Below the pieces are notes generated by a model. The model searched no databases. It was not told where the DNA came from and saw nothing but the letters and a program-made list of their open reading frames with translations. A stretch of 64,000 nucleotides of DNA from positions 1-64,000 of the forward strand of contig CASHSZ010000007.1 in the NCBI GenBank assembly GCA_949358305.1, read 5' to 3'. How positions within the stretch are numbered: the first letter of the stretch is position 1; each line of letters opens with the position of its first letter. Positions 30,601-61,024 of the stretch are shown piece after piece. This DNA comes from Strigamia acuminata (lineage: Eukaryota > Arthropoda > Chilopoda > Geophilomorpha > Linotaeniidae). The position numbers and the translations under genes were made by a program.

Positions 30601-31722
30601 AGCTAAGTTCACATGTGCGCGTTGACGCGCGCGACCACTCGTTGCCACCTTTGTTTTCCAGTGAAATCATTGATTTTACATTGAAAACAGTCACATTCTA
30701 TTGAAATGAATTGTTTTCACGTCAAAACAATACACGAAAAACAATACAAGAAAAAAAGAGTTCATAAACAAATACAATCGTTTCGACGGTGCGCGTGGAA
30801 ATTACATGCCGCTCAATGCTCGCCTGCTGCGACCGGGGAGATTGCAATTTCCCGTCGAGCAAGCAAACACAAAAACCCACCAAATTTTCAACTTTTCCCA
30901 TTTTAAAAAACAATTAAATATTCTTTAAATTAATAATCAACAATGAAATACCAAAAAAATCAATTCTTAAGCAACTTAACAATTTTTGTTTTTGTGCTGC
31001 ATGGGAACCAAAAAATTGGTTGACGCGAGCTTGTGACATGCGCTGCACAGCCTCGCGAATCCTAAGTGCGTCCTCAGCCATACGCGTCGGTCTTGACGCG
31101 CGCGTTTAGACGCGCACATGTGAACTTAGCTTTGTGCGCGTCCAGATGCGCTCGTCTAGACGACCGCGTCAGGGCCGACGCGTATAGTTGTGGATGCCTC
31201 TAGGATTCGTGAGGCTGTGCAGCGCGTGTCATAAGCGCGTCTCAATTAATTTTTTTTATTCCCATGCTGCACGTCGTTTTGAATTAACAATACTCGAAAA
31301 TAGTCGTTTTAACTTTGAAAATAATTGTTTTAATTTCGAAAATATTCGCTTTCATATCAAAGTATCCATTCTCACGCTATATAATGTTTAATACGTAATT
31401 TTATTATAAAAAATTTCCAATGTATAAACTTTATTTCTGTTTTCAGTTTCCTGATATGATTAAAGAAAATCCTAAATATTATTTCCAAACATTTATCAAA
31501 TTCTTTTCAAAAGCAGTTGTGGAGGCGTCTACTACGAACGTGTCATCGTGGGCGTCAAATTTGAATATTTTTAACTTTCTGCGTTTGCACGAATTCGCAG
31601 AATTCGTCCACTGGCATCGTGGCGACGCATGGTCGACATTTTGTATTCATATGTGACGCGCACTCTATTTACTCACGTAGAACACACGAATCGCGCGCGT
31701 CAACGCGCACATGTAAATTTAG
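30601..31722. mobile_element. Nested terminal-inverted-repeat element
   Basis: The outer ends are inverted copies: AGCTAAGTTCACATGTGCGC at 30601 and its complement, with a few changes, at about 31688-31722 (GCGCACATGTAAATTTAGTT). An additional inner copy (GCGCACATGTGAACTTAGCT) sits at about 31111-31131. Around it, 31000-31095 and 31165-31262 form a second inverted repeat (CTGCACAGCCTCGCGAATCC versus its complement). I infer two related non-autonomous elements, one inserted in the other or a foldback rearrangement. No transposase frame is present. Confidence 0.65.
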
Positions 31723-31735
31723 TTTCACTGAATCG

Positions 31736-32812
31736 CGTACGAGTTTTTCCCTTTTTCAACGCGAAATCGTATTCGACTCGCTTTCTAGTCGAGTACGAAT
31801 TTTGCCCTTCTTCAACGCGAAATCGTATTCGACTCGTTTTCGAGTCGAGTACGAGTTTTGCCCTTCTTCAACGCGAAATCGTATTCGACTCGTTTTCGAG
31901 TCGAATGCGAATTTTGTCCTTCTTCAACGCGAAATCGTATTCGACTCGTTTTCGAGTCGAGTGCGAATTTTGCCCTTCTTCAACGCGAAATCGTATTCGA
32001 CTCGTTTTCGAGTCGAGTACGAGTTTTGCCCTTCTTCAACGCGAAATCGTATTCGACTCGTTTTCGAGTCGAGTACGAGTTTTGCCCTTCTTCAACGCGA
32101 AATCGTATTCGACTCGTTTTCGAGTCGAGTACGAGTTTTGCCCTTCTTCAACGCGAAATCGTATTCGACTCGTTTTCGAGTCGAGTACGAGTTTTGCCCT
32201 TCTTCAACGCGAAATCGTATTCGACTCGTTTTCGAGTCGAATGCGAATTTTGTCCTTCTTCAACGCGAAATCGTATTCGACTCGTTTTCGAGTCGAGTAC
32301 GAGTTTTGCCCTTCTTCAACGCGAAATCGTATTCGACTCGTTTTCGAGTCGAGTACGAGTTTTGCCCTTCTTCAACGCGAAATCGTATTCGACTCGTTTT
32401 CGAGTCGAGTACGAGTTTTGCCCTTCTTCAACGCGAAATCGTATTCGACTCGTTTTCGAGTCGAATGCGAATTTTGTCCTTCTTCAACGCGAAATCGTAT
32501 TCGACTCGTTTTCGAGTCGAGTACGAGTTTTGCCCTTCTTCAACGCGAAATCGTATTCGACTCGTTTTCGAGTCGAGTACGAGTTTTGCCCTTCTTCAAC
32601 GCGAAATCGTATTCGACTCGTTTTCGAGTCGAGTACGAGTTTTGCCCTTCTTCAACGCGAAATCGTATTCGACTCGTTTTCGAGTCGAGTACGAGTTTTG
32701 CCCTTCTTCAACGCGAAATCGTATTCGACTCGTTTTCGAGTCGAGTACGAGTTTTGCCCTTCTTCAACGCGAAATCGTATTCGACTCGCTTTCGAGTCGA
32801 ATACGAGATAGT
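31736..32812. repeat. 56-bp tandem array, left arm of palindrome
   Basis: About nineteen copies of a 56-bp unit containing TTTGCCCTTCTTCAACGCG and a hairpin of 12-nt arms GTATTCGACTCG / CGAGTCGAGTAC around TTTT. Units differ by a few transitions. Because 56 is not a multiple of 3, all three frames stay open for long distances; these frames (up to 427 codons) are repeat artefacts. Confidence 0.95.
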
Positions 32813-33955
32813 CGATGACCCGTTCCCGGACTTTGACTCGTACGACTCGTATTCGAGATGTATTCGAGATGTATTCGAATCGTATTCGAGTCGTATTCGA
32901 GATGGTCGATGATTTCCACTCGCTCGTATACGCGTTGTATACGAGCTCGTATTTTGATCGTAATCGTAAACGAATCGTTTACAAGTCGTATACAAGTTGT
33001 ATACGACGTGTATACACCTCGTATACGAACGAAGTTTGTGAAAACACAATTTCCAAATAAGACGTATGTGACTACTATGTGTTTTCATGTCGTAGTAAGT
33101 ATCCGGTGGATTTTCCAAACTTCGTTCGTATACGAGGTGTATACACGTCGTATACAACTTGTATACGACTTGTAAACGATTCGTTTACGATTACGATCAA
33201 AATACGAGCTCGTATACAACGCGTATACGAGCGAGTGGAAATCATCGACCATCTCGAATGCGACTCGAATACGATTCGAATACATCTCGAATACATCTCG
33301 TTTTCGAGTCGAGTACGAATTTTGCCCTTCTTCAACGCGAAATCGTATTCGATTCGCTTTCGAATCGTATACGAGATGGTCGATTTTTGTTTCCCGGACT
33401 TTTGATTCGTATTCGAGTTGTTACGAGTTCGTATTTTGATCGTATTCGTATTCGACTCGAATTCGAATCGTATTCGAATCGAATACGAATCGAATTCGAG
33501 TCGTATTCGAGATGGTCGATGATTTCCACTCGCTCGTATACGCGTTGTATACGAGCTCGTATTTTGATCGTAATCGTAAACGAATCGTTTACAAGTCGTA
33601 TACAAGTTGTATACGACGTGTATACACCTCGTATACGAACGAAGTTTGGAAAATCCACCGGATACTTACTACGACATGAAAACACATAGTAGTCACATAC
33701 GTCTTATTTGGAAATTGTGTTTTCACAAACTTTGTTCGTATACGAGGTGTATACACGTCGTATACAACTTGTATACGACTTGTAAACGATTCGTTTACGA
33801 TTACGATCAAAATACGAGCTCGTATACAACGCGTATACGAGCGAGTGGAAATCATCGACCATCTCGAATACGACTCGAATACGATTCGAATACATCTCGA
33901 ATACATCTCGAATACGAGTCGTACGAGTCAAAGTCCGGGAACGGGTCATCGACTA
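32813..33955. repeat. Core of 3-kb palindrome (nested inverted repeats)
   Basis: Bases 32811-32820 pair with 33944-33953, placing the centre near 33382. Within each half, a GTATACGA-rich segment (about 32890-33045) is followed by a unique-looking segment with GACGTATGTGACTACTATG. That is followed by the inverted GTATACGA segment again. The mirror image runs from about 33500 to 33955. Nearly the whole block is built of CGTATTCGA / TCGTATAC words. Confidence 0.9.
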
Positions 33956-34665
33956 TCTCGTATTCGACTCGAAAACGAGTCGAATACGATTTCGCGTTGA
34001 AGAAGGACAAAATTCGCATTCGACTCGAAAACGAGTCGAATACGATTTCGCGTTGAAGAAGGGCAAAACTCGCATTCGACTCGAAAACGAGTCGAATACG
34101 ATTTCGCGTTGAAGAAGGGCAAAATTCGTATTCGACTCGAAAACGAGTCGAATACGATTTCGCGTTGAAGAAGGACAAAATTCGCATTCGACTCGAAAAC
34201 GAGTCGAATACGATTTCGCGTTGAAGAAGGACAAAATTCGCATTCGACTCGAAAACGAGTCGAATACGATTTCGCGTTGAAGAAGGGCAAAATTCGTATT
34301 CGACTCGAAAACGAGTCGAATACGATTTCGCGTTGAAGAAGGACAAAATTCGCATTCGACTCGAAAACGAGTCGAATACGATTTCGCGTTGAAGAAGGGC
34401 AAAATTCGCATTCGACTCGAAAACGAGTCGAATACGATTTCGCGTTGAAGAAGGGCAAAATTCGTACTCGACTCGAAAACGAGTCGAATACGATTTCGCG
34501 TTGAAGAAGGACAAAATTCGCATTCGACTCGAAAACGAGTCGAATACGATTTCGCGTTGAAGAAGGGCAAAACTCGTATTCGACTCGAAAACGAGTCGAA
34601 TACGATTTCGCGTTGAAGAAGGACAAAATTCGCATTCGACTCGAAAACGAGTCGAATACGAGATC
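33956..34665. repeat. 56-bp tandem array, right arm of palindrome
   Basis: About twelve to thirteen units of the same 56-bp repeat in reverse orientation, so the right arm is roughly six units shorter than the left. The array ends at about 34665 in unique sequence with ACTCGAAAACGAGTCGAATAC. Confidence 0.93.
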
Positions 34666-34699
34666 ATTTTTTGATCTGGGTCGTGAATGCGTCCGTATG

Positions 34700-35123
34700 T
34701 CACGCGAACGCGTGTTGGAGTCGATTCCGAGTTCGTATTCCATCTTGAACGCGCATTGGAGACGTCAACCAGTTTATTTTACCCACTCTCGCTCGATCCC
34801 GCTTCATCGCTCCTTGTCGCTCCTGTGAAAAAAAATACATGAGAATGTGCAGAAATGAACCTTCCAATACTCACATGAAAATTGACAACCTTGACACAAA
34901 ACAGTCTATTGACACTCCCAACACCACCCCGGACATTTTCCGGAAGAGTTTGGTCCACCCGGAATCCCCAGAATAGTCGCCCCCGAAATGCGGATTTCGC
35001 GGAAGCCAATCCGCGGAAAGGATATACTGTCACCTCGCAGGAGGAAAAGTAATCAAATGTTGTAGTAACGCCATGTAATGACAAATTTAAAGTTGTGTAA
35101 CTACTTTTCCCTTCCATCACCAT
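34700..35123 (-). CDS. Possible two-exon gene, unknown
   Basis: Candidate exons 35123-34875 and 34822-34700 (minus) join in phase 0 through a 52-bp intron (GTGAGT...TTTCACAG). They give about 123 residues, ending in a basic Arg-rich tail. The first exon contains TVYPFRGLASAKSAFRGRLFWG. The second exon abuts the palindrome. The frame has two plausible Met starts and no recognised domain. Could be a pseudogene or chance. Confidence 0.3.
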
Positions 35124-36330: not shown

Positions 36331-38720
36331 CCTGTCCTCCGCTTCCGTCGCTCCTGACGTCGAACGGGGGGGTAGCTGAGGCACCTCCTCTGTTGTCGCC
36401 GTCTTGACTGGGACCAAGGCGCGTCGCGCCGCCGCTTCCTCTCTCGATGCCGCAATGGATGCAGCGCTTCGGGACTTCTTCCCCTTCCCTTTCTGCTTGC
36501 GTGCATCGTGAGTCGACTCGATTGGGTCCCAGACGTCGGGGCTAAATTGGTCGGGATAGGCCTTCTGCCTGTGCACCCGCTTCATCAGCACCTCCTCGTA
36601 CGTAGGTGGGGGTGGCGGCGAGTGCGTCGCCAGTTCCGGTGGCATCACGATAGGTACGGGCTTGTGGGACGCCGGTACGAACATCCGCTGGAAACCATGA
36701 TTGTTGGTCAGCCTAGGGAGTCCGGCTAGTGTCTCCACGTAGCCCCGGCAGATTGATGCGTTGAAATCCGCGTAGTCCGCCCCCACCGTCTGTTCCAGTG
36801 TCCAAGTCTGGACCACGAACGGGGACGGTAGGTGGAGGTACCACGCGTTCATAGCAGTACCGACTGACCACGCGACGATGCGGACCGTTTCATACCACCG
36901 TATTGTTACGCGGTGGACGAGCACGCTGTGAATCAGCTGTCGCCACCTCGCTTCCGTAGTTAATCATTAGAGAATAACCCCTAAAACTCTCACTAGAGTC
37001 CGCCTTAAGCGGATGAGGTAATGACTTTACCTCATCCGCTTAAGGCGGACTCTAGTGAGAGTTTTAGGGGTTATTCTCTAATGATTAACTACGGAAGCGA
37101 GGTGGCGACAGCTGATTCACAGCGTGCTCGTCCACCGCGTAACAGTATCCTCCGTGCCGCGGCTGACACAACATGTGGAACATTGAGGATGATCCACATC
37201 CTCTGTCGGATCAGGGCGATAGCCCTGGTCATCCTGATGTCACTCCCGGCCGCGTCCACAAAGCGCAGGTGAAGTTCACTCCACCGCTTCGCTTCGGCGA
37301 CCCAGAGCGCCACCGTCTGAGCGTGCGCATGCTTGAGGCGTGGGATCGCCTTCAGGACAAGCGCCGTGCAGACCACTGGAGCACCAGGCGGTAAGTCGGC
37401 GATATCGAGCAGGATCTCACCCTCCACGGGTTCCAAAAACTCCGCTCCTTCTTGCTGTCCAGAGGGGCGTGGTTCCTGGGAAGGTCCTTCGCCTCCTCCG
37501 GCAGCCTCTAAACCCGTGTCGTCCATCTCGGGGTCGCCGCACCGCAGAAGTTGTGCTTTGAGGGACACAAGCTCTAACAATGACAATTGCGGCACATCGT
37601 CCTCCGTGACGGACAACTGCATTACTTCGTCTTTCAATGCCGGCGCTTGGGATTGCTCCATCGGCAGTTCGGCGCAAGCGCCGTCCTGCCTCTGGGAAAC
37701 AATACACACCTCGCGAGGCGATGACTGCTTCGACCATCCCGCAAGCGACGCAAGTCTAGTCCAGGTGCGGTGAGGCAATCCGCCCGACCCGTCAAACTGC
37801 GCCACGGGGATTCCGTGTGCGAGTGAAGCGCAAGCAATTGCCTGCTCACTGCAACCGGTCTCCACCGAACGCATCTCGACCACCTGTTCGCCTGACACTC
37901 CGGGAAGGTCCAGAGCGAGGGACACTGCTGGTTCAGCCTGTACCTCGTCCTCGACCACCTCTATCTGCTGCACGGGTTCCGGCGCACTGTCGACCACGGG
38001 AAGGACGATAGCCATCGGAACGACCACAACGGCCTGCCCGCTGCTACCGGACTCCCGCGACTGCTGTGCGAGTTGTGGTACGGCGGCAGCGTCGGCCTCA
38101 GCCACCGCTTGCCTCGCCGCCTCGGCAGACCGCGCCTTCCTCGCATTATCTTTGATACGACGGCGCAGCAGCTTCCCTGCGGACTCGATCTGAACCGCAG
38201 TTGCGTGCGGGCGGGAAATCCGCCACTCCGCTAACGTGGTCTCTAGCCGCACGGTCATCTCTTCCGTCCACTTCGACGGCGCTGGTTCTTGCTTCTGGCG
38301 CTTCGGGTTCGGCTGGGCTGGGGCCTCTGCCGAAGCCGCCCGCCCCGCCTGAACCCTTGGTGCCGAAGGCGCAGAACCCGACGGACCAGGCTGCCCGTCC
38401 CGTGCTCTGACAGCTTCCACCGTCAAACCACGTGGTAGTAGGGCATGCCCGCGTCGCAACAGCTCCTGCGTCCGTTTCTCCCACGAGTCGACGCTCATAC
38501 AAGATACCATCGAACGGGCGCGACTCCGGTCGCCGCCCGGTCGTTGTGAGTAGCGCGCATACCACCTCTGCCTGGGGATAGAGAAGTGCACTAACCCCAT
38601 GCCGAGGCAGTTGCCGCACGGCGACTCCCAACCGCCCGCCGATAGTTCCCATCGTTCCCCTGAGCAAACAGGGCAGATATGCCACTGTTTGCTCCCATCT
38701 CCGCCTCCGTTTCCCGAATT
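36292..38720 (-). pseudogene. GC-rich ORF interrupted by a foldback insertion
   Basis: One open frame runs from a good acceptor (TTTATTATTTAG, 38721) at 38720 down to TGA at 36292, apart from a 241-bp insertion at 36904-37144. Counting out the insertion and one copy of the 4-bp duplication leaves 2184 bp, a whole number of codons with no stop before the end. The left part has CPVC...CGNC, a zinc-ribbon-like pair. The middle is Ala/Pro/Glu-rich with a basic helical segment (GKLLRRRIKDNARKARSAE). The right part has PPPPPTYEEV, a PPxY motif, and a KGKGKKSR basic patch. No Met precedes the zinc-ribbon, so an upstream exon is likely. Strongly GC-rich against AT-rich neighbours. I infer a recently arrived mobile-element gene, perhaps gag- or ORF1-like; not recognised. 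Confidence 0.55.
36904..37144. mobile_element. 241-bp foldback element, TSD GTAT
   Basis: Near-perfect palindrome with arms of about 117 bp, ends TGTTACGCGGTGG...CCACCGCGTAACA, and GTAT on both sides (36900-36903 and 37145-37148). It splits the GC-rich minus-strand ORF. A further copy of one arm lies at 63821-63947. The TG...CA ends and 4-bp duplication would also suit an LTR-class integrase. Confidence 0.85.
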
Positions 38721-47559: not shown

Positions 47560-48489
47560 TCAAACCATGCGATGAGATAAAGCATTAATTTTTTATTCAG
47601 ACGAATAGAAATATTAAAAAATCTACTAAATCCTATCTTTGGGCGCCATTCTGTGGTGATCGTCCATATTTTCACTTTTTTTGTTGAATTTACATCATTC
47701 AATGTCGTAACGCGGCTTTTAGAGACTATAATTTAGCCACTTTTTACTTTCAGCCTAGTCATTCCTTTTATTGCCCCAATCATCAGAATTTTAACAGAAA
47801 TAAATAAAAAACACTGGAATTGTACAACTGGATATTAATTTTATTACATAAAAAAGGGAGACGCTTAAATTCACTTGTTTGAATCCATAATAAAACTTGA
47901 CTGTAGTTCAAATTTTATACTACAAAAAATCGTATAAATCTTACATAAATGACAAACCTGTGTATAAATAAGTACCATAAAAGAATTTTCGTAACAGATA
48001 ATAACGGTCTAGGTCTGTAAATAAAAAATCTTTTATGAGCATATCCAAGTCAAAACCTCAAAAAAACAAAACGATGTTGAAAAATTAGTATTCTTTTTGT
48101 TAGTTACAATTCGTAATTCCTTCAAATTTGTTTAAATCAAAAAGCTTTCTAAAATCCTTCAAACATGTATAGTATATTTTCCCCTTCGAATTTCCTAAAA
48201 CTTAATTCTTATGTGAAAAATAATGATGAGAAAAAAAAAATTATAACAACAACATTCTAAAAGACCATACGGAAAACTTTCAATTGAAATTATTAAATTT
48301 AAAAATTAGTTTTTGTTATTCACTGCTCCAATTACCAATTTAACAAAAGTAATAATTAAATGTTCGGTAAGTGGAAATCTCTCTTTCTGTCGGTGTTTCT
48401 GTCCACTGTGCACCGGTCGGCGGAGTCTGTTGATTGGTTAAACGACCGCGCTCCATCGCAGACGGCAAATCGAACGTCCCTGAATCATC
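47560..48489. other. AT-rich flank of the Copia insertion
   Basis: No gene supported. A GC-richer patch at 48365-48489 continues on the other side of the Copia element (54980-55130), so the element split one pre-existing segment. The 63-codon frame here is broken by the LTR. Confidence 0.5.
48485..48489. other. Target-site duplication TCATC (5')
   Basis: TCATC directly precedes the 5' LTR and is repeated at 54975-54979 directly after the 3' LTR. Confidence 0.9.
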
Positions 48490-49046
48490 TGTTGGACTTT
48501 AGAACCACTTTTGAGTTATTTAAATCATTTTTCGATGTGAAATGGCTTTGAAACGTTTATTTTATCATTTATCGGTAATTGTTTCCATTTTCCTGGGTTA
48601 TTCAGTGTTTATTTAGTGTTTTCATGCTTGTTTGTCAGGAGAATGCATGATACCGGGTTAAATGTACTCAATACATTAGGTTTCATGCATCCTCTATCTT
48701 GTTCTTATGTTTTTCATTATTATTGTTTATAATATCGGCCACCAGATGTCTCTGACACATTACAAATGGCCGCTCACACGGGTAGTGTGTTTCCTTGTGT
48801 TTGTCCAGTGATTCTGGACCCATTATGTAAGTTTTCTCTTAATAAATGTTATATTTTTGGTTAACTATTGTATTTAGTTCGGCACTACACGTTTCTATAA
48901 GTGTAGTGCACGCGAATTTGATCGTAAGTCCGCTCAAACTCGCGTACGCGCATCACGCGCATTTGTCCGCACTTAGAAGTGCGTTTGACTCAGTTTTACG
49001 CTTCCTATCGCCTATTTCGGCGATATTTTTGCGCCACACAGCTACA
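48490..49046 (+). repeat. 5' LTR
   Basis: 557 bp, TGTTGGACTT...AGCTACA. An AATAAA polyadenylation signal lies at about 48840, followed by a CACTACACG...TGTAGTG hairpin. Confidence 0.95.
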
Positions 49047-49048
49047 AG

Positions 49049-49060
49049 TGGTAGCAGAGG
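49049..49060 (+). other. Primer-binding site, initiator tRNA-Met
   Basis: TGGTAGCAGAGG begins two bases after the LTR. It is complementary to the 3' end (CCTCTGCTACCA) of animal initiator tRNA-Met. Confidence 0.85.
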
Positions 49061-49983
49061 CCTGGAAAGCCACCAGTGCCTCGTTTTTCCATTAATTTTC
49101 CGTGAATTTCGCGATTTTTCGCGATTTTTGCGGAAATTTTTGTTTTTTTCAGATTTTCGACGATTTCCGGCAGTCAACAACGTCTTTCTGACGTTCACAA
49201 CCCCGGAGTGCGGTCGTAATCGTCGATTTTTGAATTTTTTCAACCTTTTTTTCGTGTTTTTCGAGTTAAAAACACTGTTTTTTTGTGTTTTTCGACTTAA
49301 AAACACTGCTTTTTGTGCATTTATTGTGCAAGATAGCGACAATTGACCTAGGAAAGGTCTTGTTCTTTTTTTTTCCCTCTAATTTTTCGTGAATTTCGCG
49401 ATTTTTCGCGATTTTTGCGGAAATTTCATTTATTTTCAGATTTTTTCGCCGATTTTCATCATTTGTCACGTTCCGACAACGTCTGAGCGACGTTTTCATC
49501 CAGAAACGGGCATAACCCGCTGTCTGCACCCCGGAGTGCGACAGTATCGGCGATTTTCGAGAAGTTTTTCCCGGTTTTCGAAATCGGTCGGCGATCTTTT
49601 GAATAATTCCGCATTTTTTATGCGCGGTGTGCACAGGGACGTCTGTGCATACAGATTCACCAACTTCTCCTTCTTTTTATTTCAGATTTCGAATTTATTT
49701 GTTAATTTTAAGTTTTTGGAGTGGGTCCCGATTAGTATCGGCACAGCCCTTCGGACATTCCGTCCAAGCTGTGCTTGTATTCTTAGACAAGGCTGAGCCC
49801 TGCGCCACCTAACATTCCCGCGGCCCCAGGTGGTCATAAAGGACGTTAGGGGGACACTTGTCTAAGGTTCTTAGCCAATTTTAGCATTGGCTCCCCGTCG
49901 AGGTTTTTCCGCTTCTAACAACGTTTAGTGAAGTGCTTCGAGTGAAAAGTGCTCCGATTACGTCTTTAGTGCCTCGAGTGTTT
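49061..49983 (+). other. Retrotransposon leader, no gag capsid found
   Basis: T-rich leader with repeated GTGAATTTCGCGATTTTTCGCG-like words (about 49100 and 49390). No frame resembling a Copia capsid domain on the plus strand; frames are short and Phe-rich. Confidence 0.6.
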
Positions 49984-52900
49984 ATGCGTGCTCATTATCG
50001 CCATTATCTCCGATTTTCCTCCGGAAAAATGCAGACAGCAAGAGCCAACTTGAATTGGAATCGGTACACGAAGGAAACATCGGCTTTTGCTATGGACAAT
50101 CGTGGATGCAATCAATCCCGACCTCCTCGTCCGATTTCGAAGGTTCGCTGTTTTAATTGCGGCTTTTTCGGCCATTACGAGAATAAGTGCCCCCGCCCTC
50201 GCAAACAGGGCAAGGAACCGCAACCGGTCGCGTCTCAACAAGGCCGACCCCGCAGTAAGAGCAAACGACGGCAGAATAACAGTTCGCAGCAATCCGGTGG
50301 TCAAAACCGTGATGTTTCTCGTCCCCGAAGGGACGCCGCTTACCTGTTGTCGGCTCCACCGGTGATCGAAGCTCCGGTTGTACATTTTCTCCAGTCCCAC
50401 GAATGGATTGTCGATTGTGGGGCCACCGACCACGTTTCGCACGTCAAAGCGTGGTTTACGAACTTTGTTTCCGTTGTCCCGTTCAACATCGAGTTAGGCC
50501 AGGGCAGTTCGAGGGTCACAGGCAAAGGTGACGTTCCGGTCAAGTCGCTCATCGATGGCTGCGAATGCACCGTATTGCTCCGCGACGTCTTATTCGCACC
50601 TGACTTCGGCGCAAATCTTATCTCGGTTTCTCGGATTGATAAATGCGGACATCACATCCACATTCACAACTCGGAATTGCATACGTATGAAACGGACATC
50701 AAACTAAGTGTTCTTCGGGCGAAACAGAAGTCTGGACTTTATTTCGTGGATGGGCTCATCTCGCCATTCGCCGCTCCGACTAATGTTTCGAGTTTGTCTG
50801 TTTCATCATCACTTCCGACTCCGACACCGACCACTCTAGTGACGAAGGAAGAGGACTTTCCCGCATTGCCCAAGTCTTCCAACAAGACTAAGAAGAAGTC
50901 GGCTGACAATATGACCGATTTCCGCTTGCCCGTCTTCTCCAACACCTTGCTTGTCCCTTCACTTTTCCCTACCAGTCCTGCTCCTATTCCCGGATCCCAA
51001 CCTCAACAGATCCGGATGTATTCCAATGCCCTCACATCTCCTCCCGTTGCCAAGTCAAACGCAGCATTACCTCCCAAACCAGTTAATCCTTCGGTTGCCA
51101 ACGTCGCAGACGCCACGGGATTGTGGCACGGCAGGCTGGGTCACCTGCATACGAAGGCCATGCGGACTTTAGCGGCTAACTCCCAGGTTTATGGGCTTGA
51201 TCCAGCTGCTGTTCGCCAGGAACTTTCCTGCAACACGTGCCGTGTTGCCAAGTCCACGCGTGCTCCACATAAGCCAATTTCCGCGCCTTCAACCACGAAA
51301 CCGCTTGAATTGCTTCACATGGACGTCTGGGGCCCGTCGAGACTGCCTTCCATCGGCGGTGCTAATTTTGCCTTCACCATTATCGATGATGCCACCAGGT
51401 ACGCCTGGCTTTTCCCGATCGCCCGTAAATCCGATGTTTTTGCTACGTTTAAAGACTTTGTTTCCCGCGTTGAACGTATTGCTGATTGCCGGATTAAAAC
51501 AATTCGCACCGACCGTGGAGGAGAATTTATTTCGAGGGATTTTGACCGTTTTCTTGCCGACAAGGGTATTGTTGCTCAACGGACCAATCCCGCATCGCCA
51601 CAGATGAACGGTGTCGCCGAACGCCTGAACCGGACAATGGGCGACTATCTCCGCTCCATCAACTCCGAAACCGGATTTTCGCACACGCTTTGGGCTGAAC
51701 TTGCCGTGACGTTCACATATATCAAAAACCGCAGTCCGCATTCGAAGCTCAACGACGAAATCCCATACATTTTGTGGCGCCAGCGTGCTCTTTCCGTCAG
51801 ACATTTTCGTAAGATTGGTTCCAAGTGCTGGGTACACTTCACCGCACCTGGACGCAACAAACTGGATCCTCGAGCGTGGGAAGGATTTCTCGTTGGCTAC
51901 GCTTCGGGAACTCGAGGGTATCGAGTGTGGAATCCGGCTACGAACACCGTCACCGAATCTGTTCACGTCCAAATCGATGAACGGCAGAACTTTAAGCGCT
52001 CGCCCTTTTATGTTCCAGATCCGGATGACAATGCTCCACCCATGGAGGAGCCTGCTCGTGGCCACACCCCGTCACGTGTCACTTTTCGTGATAACTTTCC
52101 AACTCAGCCTTGGCCTCGTCGACGTCACGATTCGGATAACGACTCTTCTGCTGACAGCAGTGACGAGGATGGTATTGCCAGTCGTGCTTCCTCCGTCGCT
52201 TCGAGTGCTCCGTCTTTCGCTTCATTTGCACCATCTCTTCCTGCAGCTGATGGTCTCATCGCCGCTGCTGACGGCTTAGCTGCTACGACTGATGGCTCTG
52301 TTACCGACGCTGATGGCTCTGTTACCGTCGCTGATGGCTCCGATAATGTTACGACCATTGCAGGACATGGACAATTTACACCGACCGTACGTTCCACCCG
52401 CTTGCCTCATCTACGGCGTTCGATGTCCTACCCATCTCTCCCGGGTCTTGACGACACCGCAGCGATGTCTGAACAGGGTTCAGATTTTGACGAAGACCTT
52501 CTCGACGAAGCGGCTGCCTTGCCTGTCCGACTTCCGGGTACGCCTAATTTGGCGCCTTTACGCGCTCTTCATTGCCCTTGGAGTTTTGTTGGCGGCGTTT
52601 CGCCCTTCAGCGGATGGAGGAGAGAAGAGCATCTCCGGAAAGATCAGGTTCCGGGGAGGATTAAAGTCGACGTTTATTATTATCCGGAGCACGGTGTCCG
52701 CTTGCGGTCGCACACAGATATCGCCGCTTATTGTTTCGCACACCGGATACCGTATGATGAGTCCGTTTTCTTCTTCGGCAATTTAGAACACCACATGCCA
52801 TATGCTCCGCCATCGCCTCCTCGTGTCCACATGTGTTTTCGGGAACCGGCCACATACGCCGAAGCTGTGAAATTGCCCGAAGCACCGAAATGGACCGAAG

Positions 52901-54369
52901 CAATCGACGAGGAACTTTCGACTTTCAAGCAACGAGACGTTTATAAGGAGGTTCCGAGACCCCCTGACAAGACTGTGCTCGGTTGCAAATGGATTTTTAA
53001 GTTCAAAAGTGACATTACCGGAAAGATTACCCGATATCGTGCTCGACTGGTCGCCCAAGGATTTCGGCAGACAATGGGCGTTGACTACGATGAAGTTTTT
53101 AGTCCCGTAGTCAATTTTGTCCTAATCCGTTTCTTCTTTTGTCTGCTGGTTATTCTCCTCGGATGGAGGGACACGCACCTCGACGTGAAATGTGCCTACC
53201 TCTACGGCGACCTTGACCACGAGATTTATATGCGGATTCCCGCTGGTGCCACATGTTCCTCGCCCGACAACGTATGGTTGTTGACCAAGTCGCTTTACGG
53301 TCTTCACCAGTCGGGGCGCATGTGGTACCAGAAACTTAATGAAACATTGACAGAACTTGGATTTCAAAAGTTTCCAGCATGTAATTGTGTGTACGCCTAC
53401 GGACATTCGGCCATTATGCTGGTATACGTCGACGATATTGTTTTATTTTATGCTTCGGAAAACATCAGGGATCGAATACTCAAGCTGATCACGAGTAAAT
53501 TCGACATCGTCGACCTGGGGCCAATCACCAAACTGCTGGGAGTCGAGTTCGAGCGTCGTGACGGGAAAGTCTTTATGACTCAACGCAATTACATTGACAA
53601 ACTCCTCAAAAAGTTTAATGTTTCATCTGACGCGCTCATCAAGGTGCCAGTCACACCTGGGACCACGTTAGTCAAGGGACCGCTCACCGACCTTCCGGAT
53701 TTTCCGTATCGATCACTCGTCGGATCTTTATTGTTCCTGGCTTCACGTACTCGCCCCGACATTTTGTACTCGGTGATCGCATTATCGCAGTACAACAACT
53801 GCTACACCGAGAGCCATATCAAGTGTTTGCTGCAGGTCCTTCGTTACGTCGCGAACACGAGCGAGTACGCCATCGAACTTTCGAAATGCGATTCGAGTCA
53901 ACTGTGGGGTTGCACAGACGCCTCTTGGGCCTCCGACATCGCTACATCGAGATCATTCGGCGGATACATTGTTTACATCGGAAGTGTGCCCATTGGCTGG
54001 AACTGCAAGAAGCAGACCAGCGTCGCTTGCTCCACAATGGAAGCCGAATTTGTGGCACTTGTCGAAATCGTCAAAGAACTCTATTGGCTCGACAGTATTT
54101 ATCAAGTGTTTCCACCTTTACGTCGATTATCGAAACCGATCATATTTTCCGATGCCCTCGCCTCGATTCAGTTCACGAACAACGACATCGAGAACTCGAA
54201 AACGAAACATATTCGAGTGAAGTTTCACTGGCTTCGTGAGTGGCACATTGCCGGATGTTTCGAACTCCGCAAAATTCCGGGTGAGATAAATGTATCCGAC
54301 ATTTTCACCAAGTGGCTCAGTTCAGAGCGTCTTCGAAATTTATTATCTCGGATTTTCGTCTCGAAGTAA
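49984..54369 (+). CDS. Copia polyprotein with methyl-CpG-binding-like domain
   Basis: 1461 residues from the first in-frame ATG; the frame opens at 49933 (numbering here from 49933). A nucleocapsid zinc knuckle CFNCGFFGHYENKC is at 73-86. A protease-like WIVDCGATDH at 158-167 has Cys in place of the usual Ser/Thr after the catalytic Asp. The integrase zinc region is WHGRLGH...CNTC at 398-436. Integrase catalytic residues are D464, D527 and E563. A Ser/Asp-rich linker with ADG(S/L)V repeats spans about 730-805. A domain at about 893-952 matches the methyl-CpG-binding fold. RT spans about 1000-1230 with YVDD at 1165-1168. RNase H has TDASWA at 1328, STMEAEF at 1367 and a KHIRVKFHWLRE motif. The capsid part of gag is missing or extremely short, so packaging may need another element. 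Copies itself through RNA and integrates cDNA. Confidence 0.93.
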   Translation: MRAHYRHYLRFSSGKMQTARANLNWNRYTKETSAFAMDNRGCNQSRPPRPISKVRCFNCGFFGHYENKCPRPRKQGKEPQPVASQQGRPRSKSKRRQNNSSQQSGGQNRDVSRPRRDAAYLLSAPPVIEAPVVHFLQSHEWIVDCGATDHVSHVKAWFTNFVSVVPFNIELGQGSSRVTGKGDVPVKSLIDGCECTVLLRDVLFAPDFGANLISVSRIDKCGHHIHIHNSELHTYETDIKLSVLRAKQKSGLYFVDGLISPFAAPTNVSSLSVSSSLPTPTPTTLVTKEEDFPALPKSSNKTKKKSADNMTDFRLPVFSNTLLVPSLFPTSPAPIPGSQPQQIRMYSNALTSPPVAKSNAALPPKPVNPSVANVADATGLWHGRLGHLHTKAMRTLAANSQVYGLDPAAVRQELSCNTCRVAKSTRAPHKPISAPSTTKPLELLHMDVWGPSRLPSIGGANFAFTIIDDATRYAWLFPIARKSDVFATFKDFVSRVERIADCRIKTIRTDRGGEFISRDFDRFLADKGIVAQRTNPASPQMNGVAERLNRTMGDYLRSINSETGFSHTLWAELAVTFTYIKNRSPHSKLNDEIPYILWRQRALSVRHFRKIGSKCWVHFTAPGRNKLDPRAWEGFLVGYASGTRGYRVWNPATNTVTESVHVQIDERQNFKRSPFYVPDPDDNAPPMEEPARGHTPSRVTFRDNFPTQPWPRRRHDSDNDSSADSSDEDGIASRASSVASSAPSFASFAPSLPAADGLIAAADGLAATTDGSVTDADGSVTVADGSDNVTTIAGHGQFTPTVRSTRLPHLRRSMSYPSLPGLDDTAAMSEQGSDFDEDLLDEAAALPVRLPGTPNLAPLRALHCPWSFVGGVSPFSGWRREEHLRKDQVPGRIKVDVYYYPEHGVRLRSHTDIAAYCFAHRIPYDESVFFFGNLEHHMPYAPPSPPRVHMCFREPATYAEAVKLPEAPKWTEAIDEELSTFKQRDVYKEVPRPPDKTVLGCKWIFKFKSDITGKITRYRARLVAQGFRQTMGVDYDEVFSPVVNFVLIRFFFCLLVILLGWRDTHLDVKCAYLYGDLDHEIYMRIPAGATCSSPDNVWLLTKSLYGLHQSGRMWYQKLNETLTELGFQKFPACNCVYAYGHSAIMLVYVDDIVLFYASENIRDRILKLITSKFDIVDLGPITKLLGVEFERRDGKVFMTQRNYIDKLLKKFNVSSDALIKVPVTPGTTLVKGPLTDLPDFPYRSLVGSLLFLASRTRPDILYSVIALSQYNNCYTESHIKCLLQVLRYVANTSEYAIELSKCDSSQLWGCTDASWASDIATSRSFGGYIVYIGSVPIGWNCKKQTSVACSTMEAEFVALVEIVKELYWLDSIYQVFPPLRRLSKPIIFSDALASIQFTNNDIENSKTKHIRVKFHWLREWHIAGCFELRKIPGEINVSDIFTKWLSSERLRNLLSRIFVSK
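52609..52788 (+). other. Methyl-CpG-binding (MBD/TAM-like) domain in pol
   Basis: Polyprotein residues about 893-952 read GWRREEHLRKDQVPGRIKVD, then VYYYPEHGVRLRSHTDIAAY, then DESVFFFG. This follows the MBD family pattern: P-x-GW-x-R-E-x-x-x-RK, then G-K-x-D-V-YYY-x-P-x-G, then (F/L)RS-x-x-x-(L/I)AxY, then S-F-x-F. The DNA-contacting Arg after GW, the RK pair, the Asp-Val-Tyr strand and the Arg-Ser turn are all present. Position between integrase and RT is unusual for Copia. I infer a targeting or chromatin-tethering role for methylated DNA. Confidence 0.75.
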
Positions 54370-54417: not shown

Positions 54418-54974
54418 TGTTGGACTTTAGAACCACTTTTGAGTTATTTAAATCATTTTTCGATGTGAAATGGCTTTGAAACGTTTATTTTATCATTTAT
54501 CGGTAATTGTTTCCATTTTCCTGGGTTATTCAGTGTTTATTTAGTGTTTTCATGCTTGTTTGTCAGGAGAATGCATGATACCGGGTTAAATGTACTCAAT
54601 ACATTAGGTTTCATGCATCCTCTATCTTGTTCTTATGTTTTTCATTATTATTGTTTATAATATCGGCCACCAGATGTCTCTGACACATTACAAATGGCCG
54701 CTCACACGGGTAGTGTGTTTCCTTGTGTTTGTCCAGTGATTCTGGACCCATTATGTAAGTTTTCTCTTAATAAATGTTATATTTTTGGTTAACTATTGTA
54801 TTTAGTTCGGCACTACACGTTTCTATAAGTGTAGTGCACGCGAATTTGATCGTAAGTCCGCTCAAACTCGCGTACGCGCATCACGCGCATTTGTCCGCAC
54901 TTAGAAGTGCGTTTGACTCAGTTTTACGCTTCCTATCGCCTATTTCGGCGATATTTTTGCGCCACACAGCTACA
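54418..54974 (+). repeat. 3' LTR
   Basis: 557 bp; on reading both copies I found no difference from the 5' LTR. Confidence 0.95.
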
Positions 54975-54979
54975 TCATC

Positions 54980-60231: not shown

Positions 60232-60990
60232 TCACTTGAATGCTGCCGCCGCCGCCTGCATCTCATCAATGATGTGGTAGATCAATTTCAACGCTACGCC
60301 TAGCAATATCAATTTCATTTGGTGAATTGAGGTGGCATAACTTTTCTCCACTGCTTTCTCCACATGCTGAAGAAAGAACAATTGATAATTTTCTTTGACT
60401 AGAAGTATAATTTTCTCTCCTAATGAGTGGGTTAAATGAAGGTCCGAAAAGACGATGGTTTTGAACAGTCGCGTTTGGCTGGCCCAATCCACGCTGAAGG
60501 GGGTAGCCTGATTCCATGGCAATGAGCAGACAATTGTATTATCTGGCACTAGTTCATCAATCAGTGTCAGTGCACACATAGGCTCCTTAATGCGCGGTTC
60601 CCTGGTCAGTAATTCACACAATATGGGGTACTTTTTAGTCGTAATTATGTCTTCTTCATCGAGTCCCTTTAGTGTTGACAAAAATGGTTTGTTGCAAAGG
60701 CGCGGATCAATTTTTGCAATTTTTGGCAGTTTCACCGAGGTCTCAATGGGTGATAATGACGCATCTCTGTTTGATGGGTTTGCCCATACATCAGTATCCA
60801 TTGTGAGCAAGGGGATGTTCCTAGATGAATGTTTTGTTTTAGAGTCTTCCAGCTTTGGATCGGCTGCTTGGGCATTTTCATTCTGCTTTACAAATTTATC
60901 TGGCTCAAACTCTCCTTCCAAAAGAGCTCTGATTTCGTCTTCCGTCATGATGAGTTCCCGCGGAGGTTTAAGAGGTGTTGTTTTTCTCAT
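60232..60990 (-). CDS. Unrecognised 252-residue protein
   Basis: Single-exon frame from ATG 60990 to a stop at 60232. A basic/Pro start (MRKTTPLKPPRELIMTEDEI) is followed by a Lys/Asp/Ser-rich region to about residue 80. The rest is more folded-looking: LPKIAKIDPRLCNKPFLSTL, EDIITTKKYPILCELLTREP, DELVPDNTIVCSLPWNQATP and KIILLVKENYQLFFLQHVEK. A C-terminal helix pair ends in an Ala run. No signal peptide; one mildly hydrophobic helix (LILLGVALKLIYHII). The existence of a partial copy at 57.7 kb suggests a duplicated or retroposed gene. I do not recognise the family. Confidence 0.55.
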   Translation of the reverse strand: MRKTTPLKPPRELIMTEDEIRALLEGEFEPDKFVKQNENAQAADPKLEDSKTKHSSRNIPLLTMDTDVWANPSNRDASLSPIETSVKLPKIAKIDPRLCNKPFLSTLKGLDEEDIITTKKYPILCELLTREPRIKEPMCALTLIDELVPDNTIVCSLPWNQATPFSVDWASQTRLFKTIVFSDLHLTHSLGEKIILLVKENYQLFFLQHVEKAVEKSYATSIHQMKLILLGVALKLIYHIIDEMQAAAAAFK

Positions 60991-61024
60991 CTTCAATGCG
61001 TTTAACTACGATGATGTGTAACGT

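Follow-up and report, generated by a model that had tools for sequence, protein, structure and literature searches.

Does a retrotransposon choose its insertion sites by reading the DNA methylation of its host? The question is raised by a Copia element in the centipede Strigamia acuminata, found in the first 64,000 nucleotides (the window) of contig CASHSZ010000007.1 (assembly GCA_949358305.1; C18 in our numbering), which is not one of the chromosomes. The polyprotein of this young, multi-copy Copia contains a methyl-CpG-binding domain (MBD) fused between integrase and reverse transcriptase (RT). Copies of MBD-bearing families were inserted in CpG-dense DNA, often with a CpG at the edges of the cut. 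The element is probably of the CopiaMBD type; its MBD is likely to anchor the integration complex on methylated repeats dense in CpG, where new copies then land. Retroelements that pick their sites by reading host DNA methylation would tie transposon spread directly to the epigenome.

An MBD within the Copia polyprotein

The translation of positions 52609-52788, SGWRREEHLRKDQVPGRIKVDVYYYPEHGVRLRSHTDIAAYCFAHRIPYDESVFFFGNLE, contained each part of the MBD signature that the initial annotation had named: GW-x-RE, RK, DVYYY, (L)RS, A-x-Y and a Phe-x-Phe end. Against the Pfam MBD profile (PF01429, cut-off 21 bits) the module reached 22.9 bits within the full-length protein and 29.5 bits as an excised piece, and its placement between integrase and RT, also proposed in that annotation, was borne out by the Pfam coordinates (Table 1). 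The nearest solved relatives by sequence were MBD2 chains. Alignment to MBD2 revealed that the Arg of LRK, the Asp and first Tyr of DVYYY, and the Arg of LRS were kept in the window module; the two Arg we take to be the arginine fingers of the MBD, and the Asp and Tyr to be the residues that contact the methyl group. The predicted model of the module was of low confidence (pLDDT 49), and none of 602 candidates from a large genome and metagenome protein collection matched residues 860-1020 at E <= 0.001.

The MBD is kept under purifying selection. In comparison with one sister-family copy, dN/dS was 0.09 in the MBD (dN 0.045, dS 0.487), 0.21 in the linker, 0.05 in RT and 0.04 in the SH3-like domain. 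Six replacements separated the two MBDs, none at a DNA-contact position, the contact roles being those that we assume from the MBD literature.

The MBD profile was also run on the genome assembly (237,517,015 bases, 157 contigs), and only the best-scoring hits per profile were kept: 150 scored of 1092 first-look MBD candidates, and the top 150 RVT_2 hits. All 150 scored MBD hits exceeded the cut-off and 130 lay in open frames of more than 1000 amino acids (aa), which argues that the module did not arise by chance. An ordinary Copia linker that resembles an MBD fortuitously is a very improbable account. The full-protein score of the window element, barely above the cut-off, would suit it, but two other MBD-bearing families scored 41.5 and 40.7 bits at the same place, the linker ahead of the MBD had double the dN/dS, and a Pfam search of one copy each from two MBD-less Copia families, of 1368 and 1388 aa, gave no MBD match.

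MBD-bearing families in the genome

The frames read around MBD hits were Copia, and the module stood just ahead of the RT start at each of loci L001, L003-L005, L007-L015, L098 and L210 (frames at L002 and L006 were read in part only). The window family comprised at least 36 copies at 99-100% identity over 570 bases and four sister copies at 88% (174 candidates, of which 40 were scored). The top 150 RVT_2 hits were taken as MBD-less, as none lay within 2.5 kb of any of the 150 listed MBD hits. Typical frames were 1494-1637 aa in MBD-bearing and 1307-1410 aa in MBD-less elements.

The presumed methyl-contacting Tyr was kept in the window element, L001, L003 and L004. Its position was occupied by Val and Ile in the 1627-aa and 1567-aa families, which by frame length contributed 49 and 24, respectively, to the 150 scored hits. 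Val or Ile was likewise found at L007-L015, L098 and L210, where both arginine fingers were retained. Several families fell outside the MBD alignment, and their contact residues were read from individual frames. The ability to discriminate methylated from plain CpG may therefore vary between families, and those with Val or Ile may be less particular about methylation when reading CpG.

Two variants of the start of the long terminal repeat (LTR), TGTTAG and TGTTGG, occurred among window-family copies (L066-L085, L189-L198), which hints at two recent subfamilies. The LTRs of the 1627-aa family (L098, L119-L138, L159-L178) start with TATTGAG and end with CGCTTTA, rather than TG...CA, and its 5-bp duplications were clean.

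Insertion sites of MBD-bearing and MBD-less copies

Near-identical MBD-bearing copies beside well-bounded MBD-less Copia families make the targeting idea testable in this genome. Both ends were read for copies of four families: the window and 1627-aa families, which carry the MBD, and the MBD-less 1368-aa and 1388-aa families. The window family has at least 36 near-identical copies; 31 were examined, seven of which had an unreadable end; one of 20 copies was unreadable in the 1627-aa family and one of 20 in the 1368-aa family. A perfect 5-bp target-site duplication (TSD) flanked 22 of 24 readable window-family copies, 17 of 19 in the 1627-aa family, 19 of 19 in the 1368-aa family and 11 of 11 in the 1388-aa family. 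Copies lacking a perfect TSD (2/24 and 2/19 in the two MBD-bearing families) were left out of the counts, so that 39 MBD-bearing sites from two families were compared with 30 MBD-less sites from two families.

CpG per dinucleotide in the flanks was 0.084 for the window family and 0.085 for the 1627-aa family (39 sites), compared with 0.030 for the 1368-aa family (19 sites). At the 35-base scale the values were 0.096, 0.080 and 0.023, respectively, and 0.014 for the 1388-aa family; CpG at the DNMT and MBD gene loci was 0.044. CpG minus GpC also separated the flanks of MBD-bearing from those of MBD-less copies (P 0.001). Around the MBD-bearing sites, CpG density was 0.076-0.100 per base in every bin out to 220 bp. 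The window element itself sits in a narrow CpG-rich patch, with CpG at 0.13 within 100 bases per side and 0.031 within 2 kb.

Some of these surroundings were repeats. Six MBD-bearing sites lay inside Copia coding sequence (L066, L119, L123, L125, L129, L175) and five in repeats resembling window positions 26-35 kb (L068, L072, L078, L131, L173). A stretch of 60 bases at L137 recurred in the window at 10.5 kb, and one of 64 bases in the L167 3' flank recurred at locus L209. Repeats elsewhere in the genome that are related to a 56-bp satellite of the window (31600-34800) were among the targets of MBD-bearing Copia copies. Among the 19 MBD-less sites of the 1368-aa family, two had matches, of 33 and 35 bases.

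On the chromosomes, MBD hits were clustered (statistic 256, random mean 78; none of 500 randomisations reached 256), while the top RVT_2 hits clustered little (116, random mean 95; 49 of 500). Contigs not placed on a chromosome carried 16 of the 150 MBD hits, 9 of the 36 window-family copies and 3 of the 150 top RVT_2 hits. Scored MBD hits were densely grouped near chromosome ends: C1 at 62-67 Mb, C6 at 13.5-16.1 Mb and C12 at 0.4-1.1 Mb. The description of assembly qcStrAcum1.1 gives the S. acuminata chromosomes as 66.99, 37.79, 19.35, 16.99, 16.15, 14.72, 12.25, 10.36 and 9.84 Mb, with X at 9.63 and Y at 10.34 Mb (PMC10556566).

These patterns could have been shaped after insertion, by wide landing followed by survival only in repeats, in which case they would be silent on targeting. 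Surviving copies alone are visible, and the longer MBD-bearing elements may do more harm. The copies are very young, however, being near-identical and mostly bounded by perfect TSDs, and equally well-bounded MBD-less copies of the same genome lie in AT-rich DNA. We therefore regard selection after insertion as improbable.

Site preference at the cut

A palindrome spanned the TSD in the 39 pooled MBD-bearing sites: G in 63% at position -3, C in 47% at -1 and G in 45% at 0, plus the mirror image. A CpG lay on 21 of 78 TSD edges, compared with a mean of 7.5 (standard deviation 2.5) at other flank positions under the same folded count, and with 2 of 60 edges in the two MBD-less families (Fisher P 1.5e-4). 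The edge CpG was first noticed in 17 window-family sites and recurred in the independent 1627-aa family (9/34, binomial P 0.0017). A literature search did not find this TSD-edge pattern, which the text of the 2019 report on MBD-bearing retrotransposons (discussed below) may nevertheless hold. The base-pair pattern yields a sharp prediction by which tethering through the MBD can be told apart from a preference built into integrase.

Such a preference is the other account to be weighed. The integrase itself would favour a GC- or CpG-rich palindrome and the MBD would do another job, such as chromosome retention or contact with a silencing protein, with no methyl reading needed. The palindrome is of the kind that integrase active sites produce, and it was present in two MBD-bearing families that differ at the presumed methyl-contacting Tyr. 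High CpG out to 220 bp, in contrast, reaches beyond an integrase footprint, and insertions into repeats and the chromosomal clusters also speak against this account, which we hold to be unlikely, if worth keeping in view.

Of the mechanisms considered, a tether that reads methylation is the most likely cause of the insertion bias. The MBD, lying beside integrase in the polyprotein, would be displayed on the pre-integration complex; it would bind methylated CpG in the cell and hold the complex on methylated, CpG-dense repeats, and integrase would then cut with its own palindromic preference. Binding of the MBD to methylated CpG would thus be the cause of the bias. The initial annotation had likewise proposed targeting to methylated chromatin. 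This is partly supported: the module is an MBD and two MBD families sit in CpG-dense repeats, as that proposal predicts, but a sequence preference of integrase could give the same pattern.

Several observations weigh against the tether. Flank GC content was 0.49 in the window family, 0.49 in the 1627-aa family and 0.35 in the 1368-aa family, so the CpG contrast is partly one of plain GC content. The control families are distant, the window RT aligning to the two MBD-less families at 33-34% identity, which leaves an integrase-borne preference inseparable from the MBD; integrase and MBD also occur together in both MBD-bearing families compared, so their shares of the bias cannot be parted here. 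Among the scored hits, the MBD families with the most members have Val or Ile in place of the Tyr, yet the 1627-aa family shows the same site bias. A test for coupling between C at -1 and G at 0, over and above single-base frequencies, gave P values of 0.010 and 1.0 for the two orientations; the edge CpG is mostly what single-base preferences would give and, with coupling this weak, may stem from the integrase and not from an MBD contact. Finally, CpG was not depleted (observed/expected 1.56 in the window and 1.33 in the element), which counts against methylation because long-lived germline methylation tends to deplete CpG.

As to the host, segments of cytosine methyltransferase were found at five places in the genome (11 matches). 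A host MBD2/3-like gene (L201; C5 near 5.734 Mb) matched MBD2 in two pieces, with an intron inside the MBD.

Relation to known systems

The initial annotation knew of no standard Copia family with an MBD at this place. This does not hold: a 2019 paper (de Mendoza, Pflueger, Lister, Genome Res; PMC6673714) reported the capture of an MBD by a family of arthropod retrotransposons, and a citing discussion counts that report among cases of transposable elements that co-opted host chromatin regulators. The S. acuminata element is thus a further member, from a sister species, and not a new kind. What is new here is the CpG-dense siting relative to MBD-less controls of the same genome, sharpened to the cut site.

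The 2019 elements are reportedly Copia elements of S. maritima: de Mendoza, Pflueger and Lister are said to have described CopiaMBD there, with methyl binding and a build-up of copies in regions dense in CpG. If that account is right, the likeness extends to a Copia polyprotein with an MBD, reportedly also between integrase and RT, in the same centipede genus, and to young copies in CpG-dense DNA, which in S. acuminata was denser in CpG than that around two MBD-less Copia families. The differences would lie in the species, in the methyl-contacting Tyr kept by the window family, in its lack of a recognisable gag domain and in a site preference resolved to the base pair.

Chromoviruses are Ty3/Gypsy elements with a reader of histone marks, the chromodomain, at the integrase C-terminus. 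On the tether account they share with the window element an element-borne reader of a repressive mark that chooses insertion places; they differ in their Gypsy order and chromodomain, the window polyprotein having the Copia order, with integrase ahead of RT, and no chromodomain match in Pfam. The likeness to animal MBD2/3 lies in the alignment of the window domain with MBD2, in which both arginine fingers are retained, and the difference in a Phe that the host gene carries at the position of the window element's presumed methyl-contacting Tyr. Retrotransposons of dinoflagellates and charophytes that bear a DNMT (PMC5890265) also took over part of the DNA methylation machinery; theirs is a writer, a methyltransferase, whereas the window element carries a reader.

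Structure of the window element

A single frame contained, in Pfam order, Pol_BBD, gag_pre-integrs, rve, SH3, MBD and RVT_2 (Table 1). The element had been called young and intact. The first description is upheld by LTRs without a single difference and by the TSD; the second applies to the long pol frame with its domains but not to Gag, for which the window copy has no recognisable domain. The Pfam scan of the polyprotein did not find the gag-type capsid domain PF14223, and inspection of the leader by eye, with no profile search, found no long open frame recognisable as gag. Over 49047-50200 no more than a zinc knuckle, near the frame start, was recognised. In two related MBD families, Pfam placed a gag domain in the same frame as pol. 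For an element that is multi-copy yet has no recognisable gag, the capsid may be supplied in trans. A fuller scenario, in which the MBD sets integrase at symmetric CpG steps on both edges of the 5-bp TSD within methylated satellites and older transposons, and capsid borrowed from MBD-bearing relatives serves the spread of the window family, is speculative and rather doubtful as a whole.

Table 1. Coordinates of the Copia element within the window
Feature	Positions	Strand	Remarks
Target-site duplication TCATC, 5 bp, left copy	48485..48489	+	Right copy at 54975-54979
5' LTR, 557 bp, TG...CA	48490..49046	+	Same sequence as 3' LTR
Primer-binding site AGTGGTAGCAGAGG	49047..49066	+	Adjoins 5' LTR; presumably a match to the initiator tRNA-Met 3' end
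Copia pol open frame, 1494 aa: Pol_BBD, integrase, MBD, reverse transcriptase	49885..54369	+	Pfam
Integrase core rve, residues 471-572	51295..51600	+	Pfam
SH3-like domain 3' of integrase, residues 634-703	51784..51993	+	Pfam
Methyl-CpG-binding domain, Pfam core, residues 910-954	52612..52746	+	Module with Phe-x-Phe end reaches 52788
Reverse transcriptase RVT_2, residues 1018-1256	52936..53652	+	Pfam
3' LTR, 557 bp	54418..54974	+	Same sequence as 5' LTR

Neither Rfam nor a tRNA scan gave a match in the window. Two minus-strand open frames, one of 543 aa at 37092-38720 and one of about 256 aa at 60235-61005, had no Pfam match at E 0.1. The 56-bp satellite at 31600-34800 formed inverted arrays, and CpG observed/expected reached 2.47 in the 32-36 kb bin.
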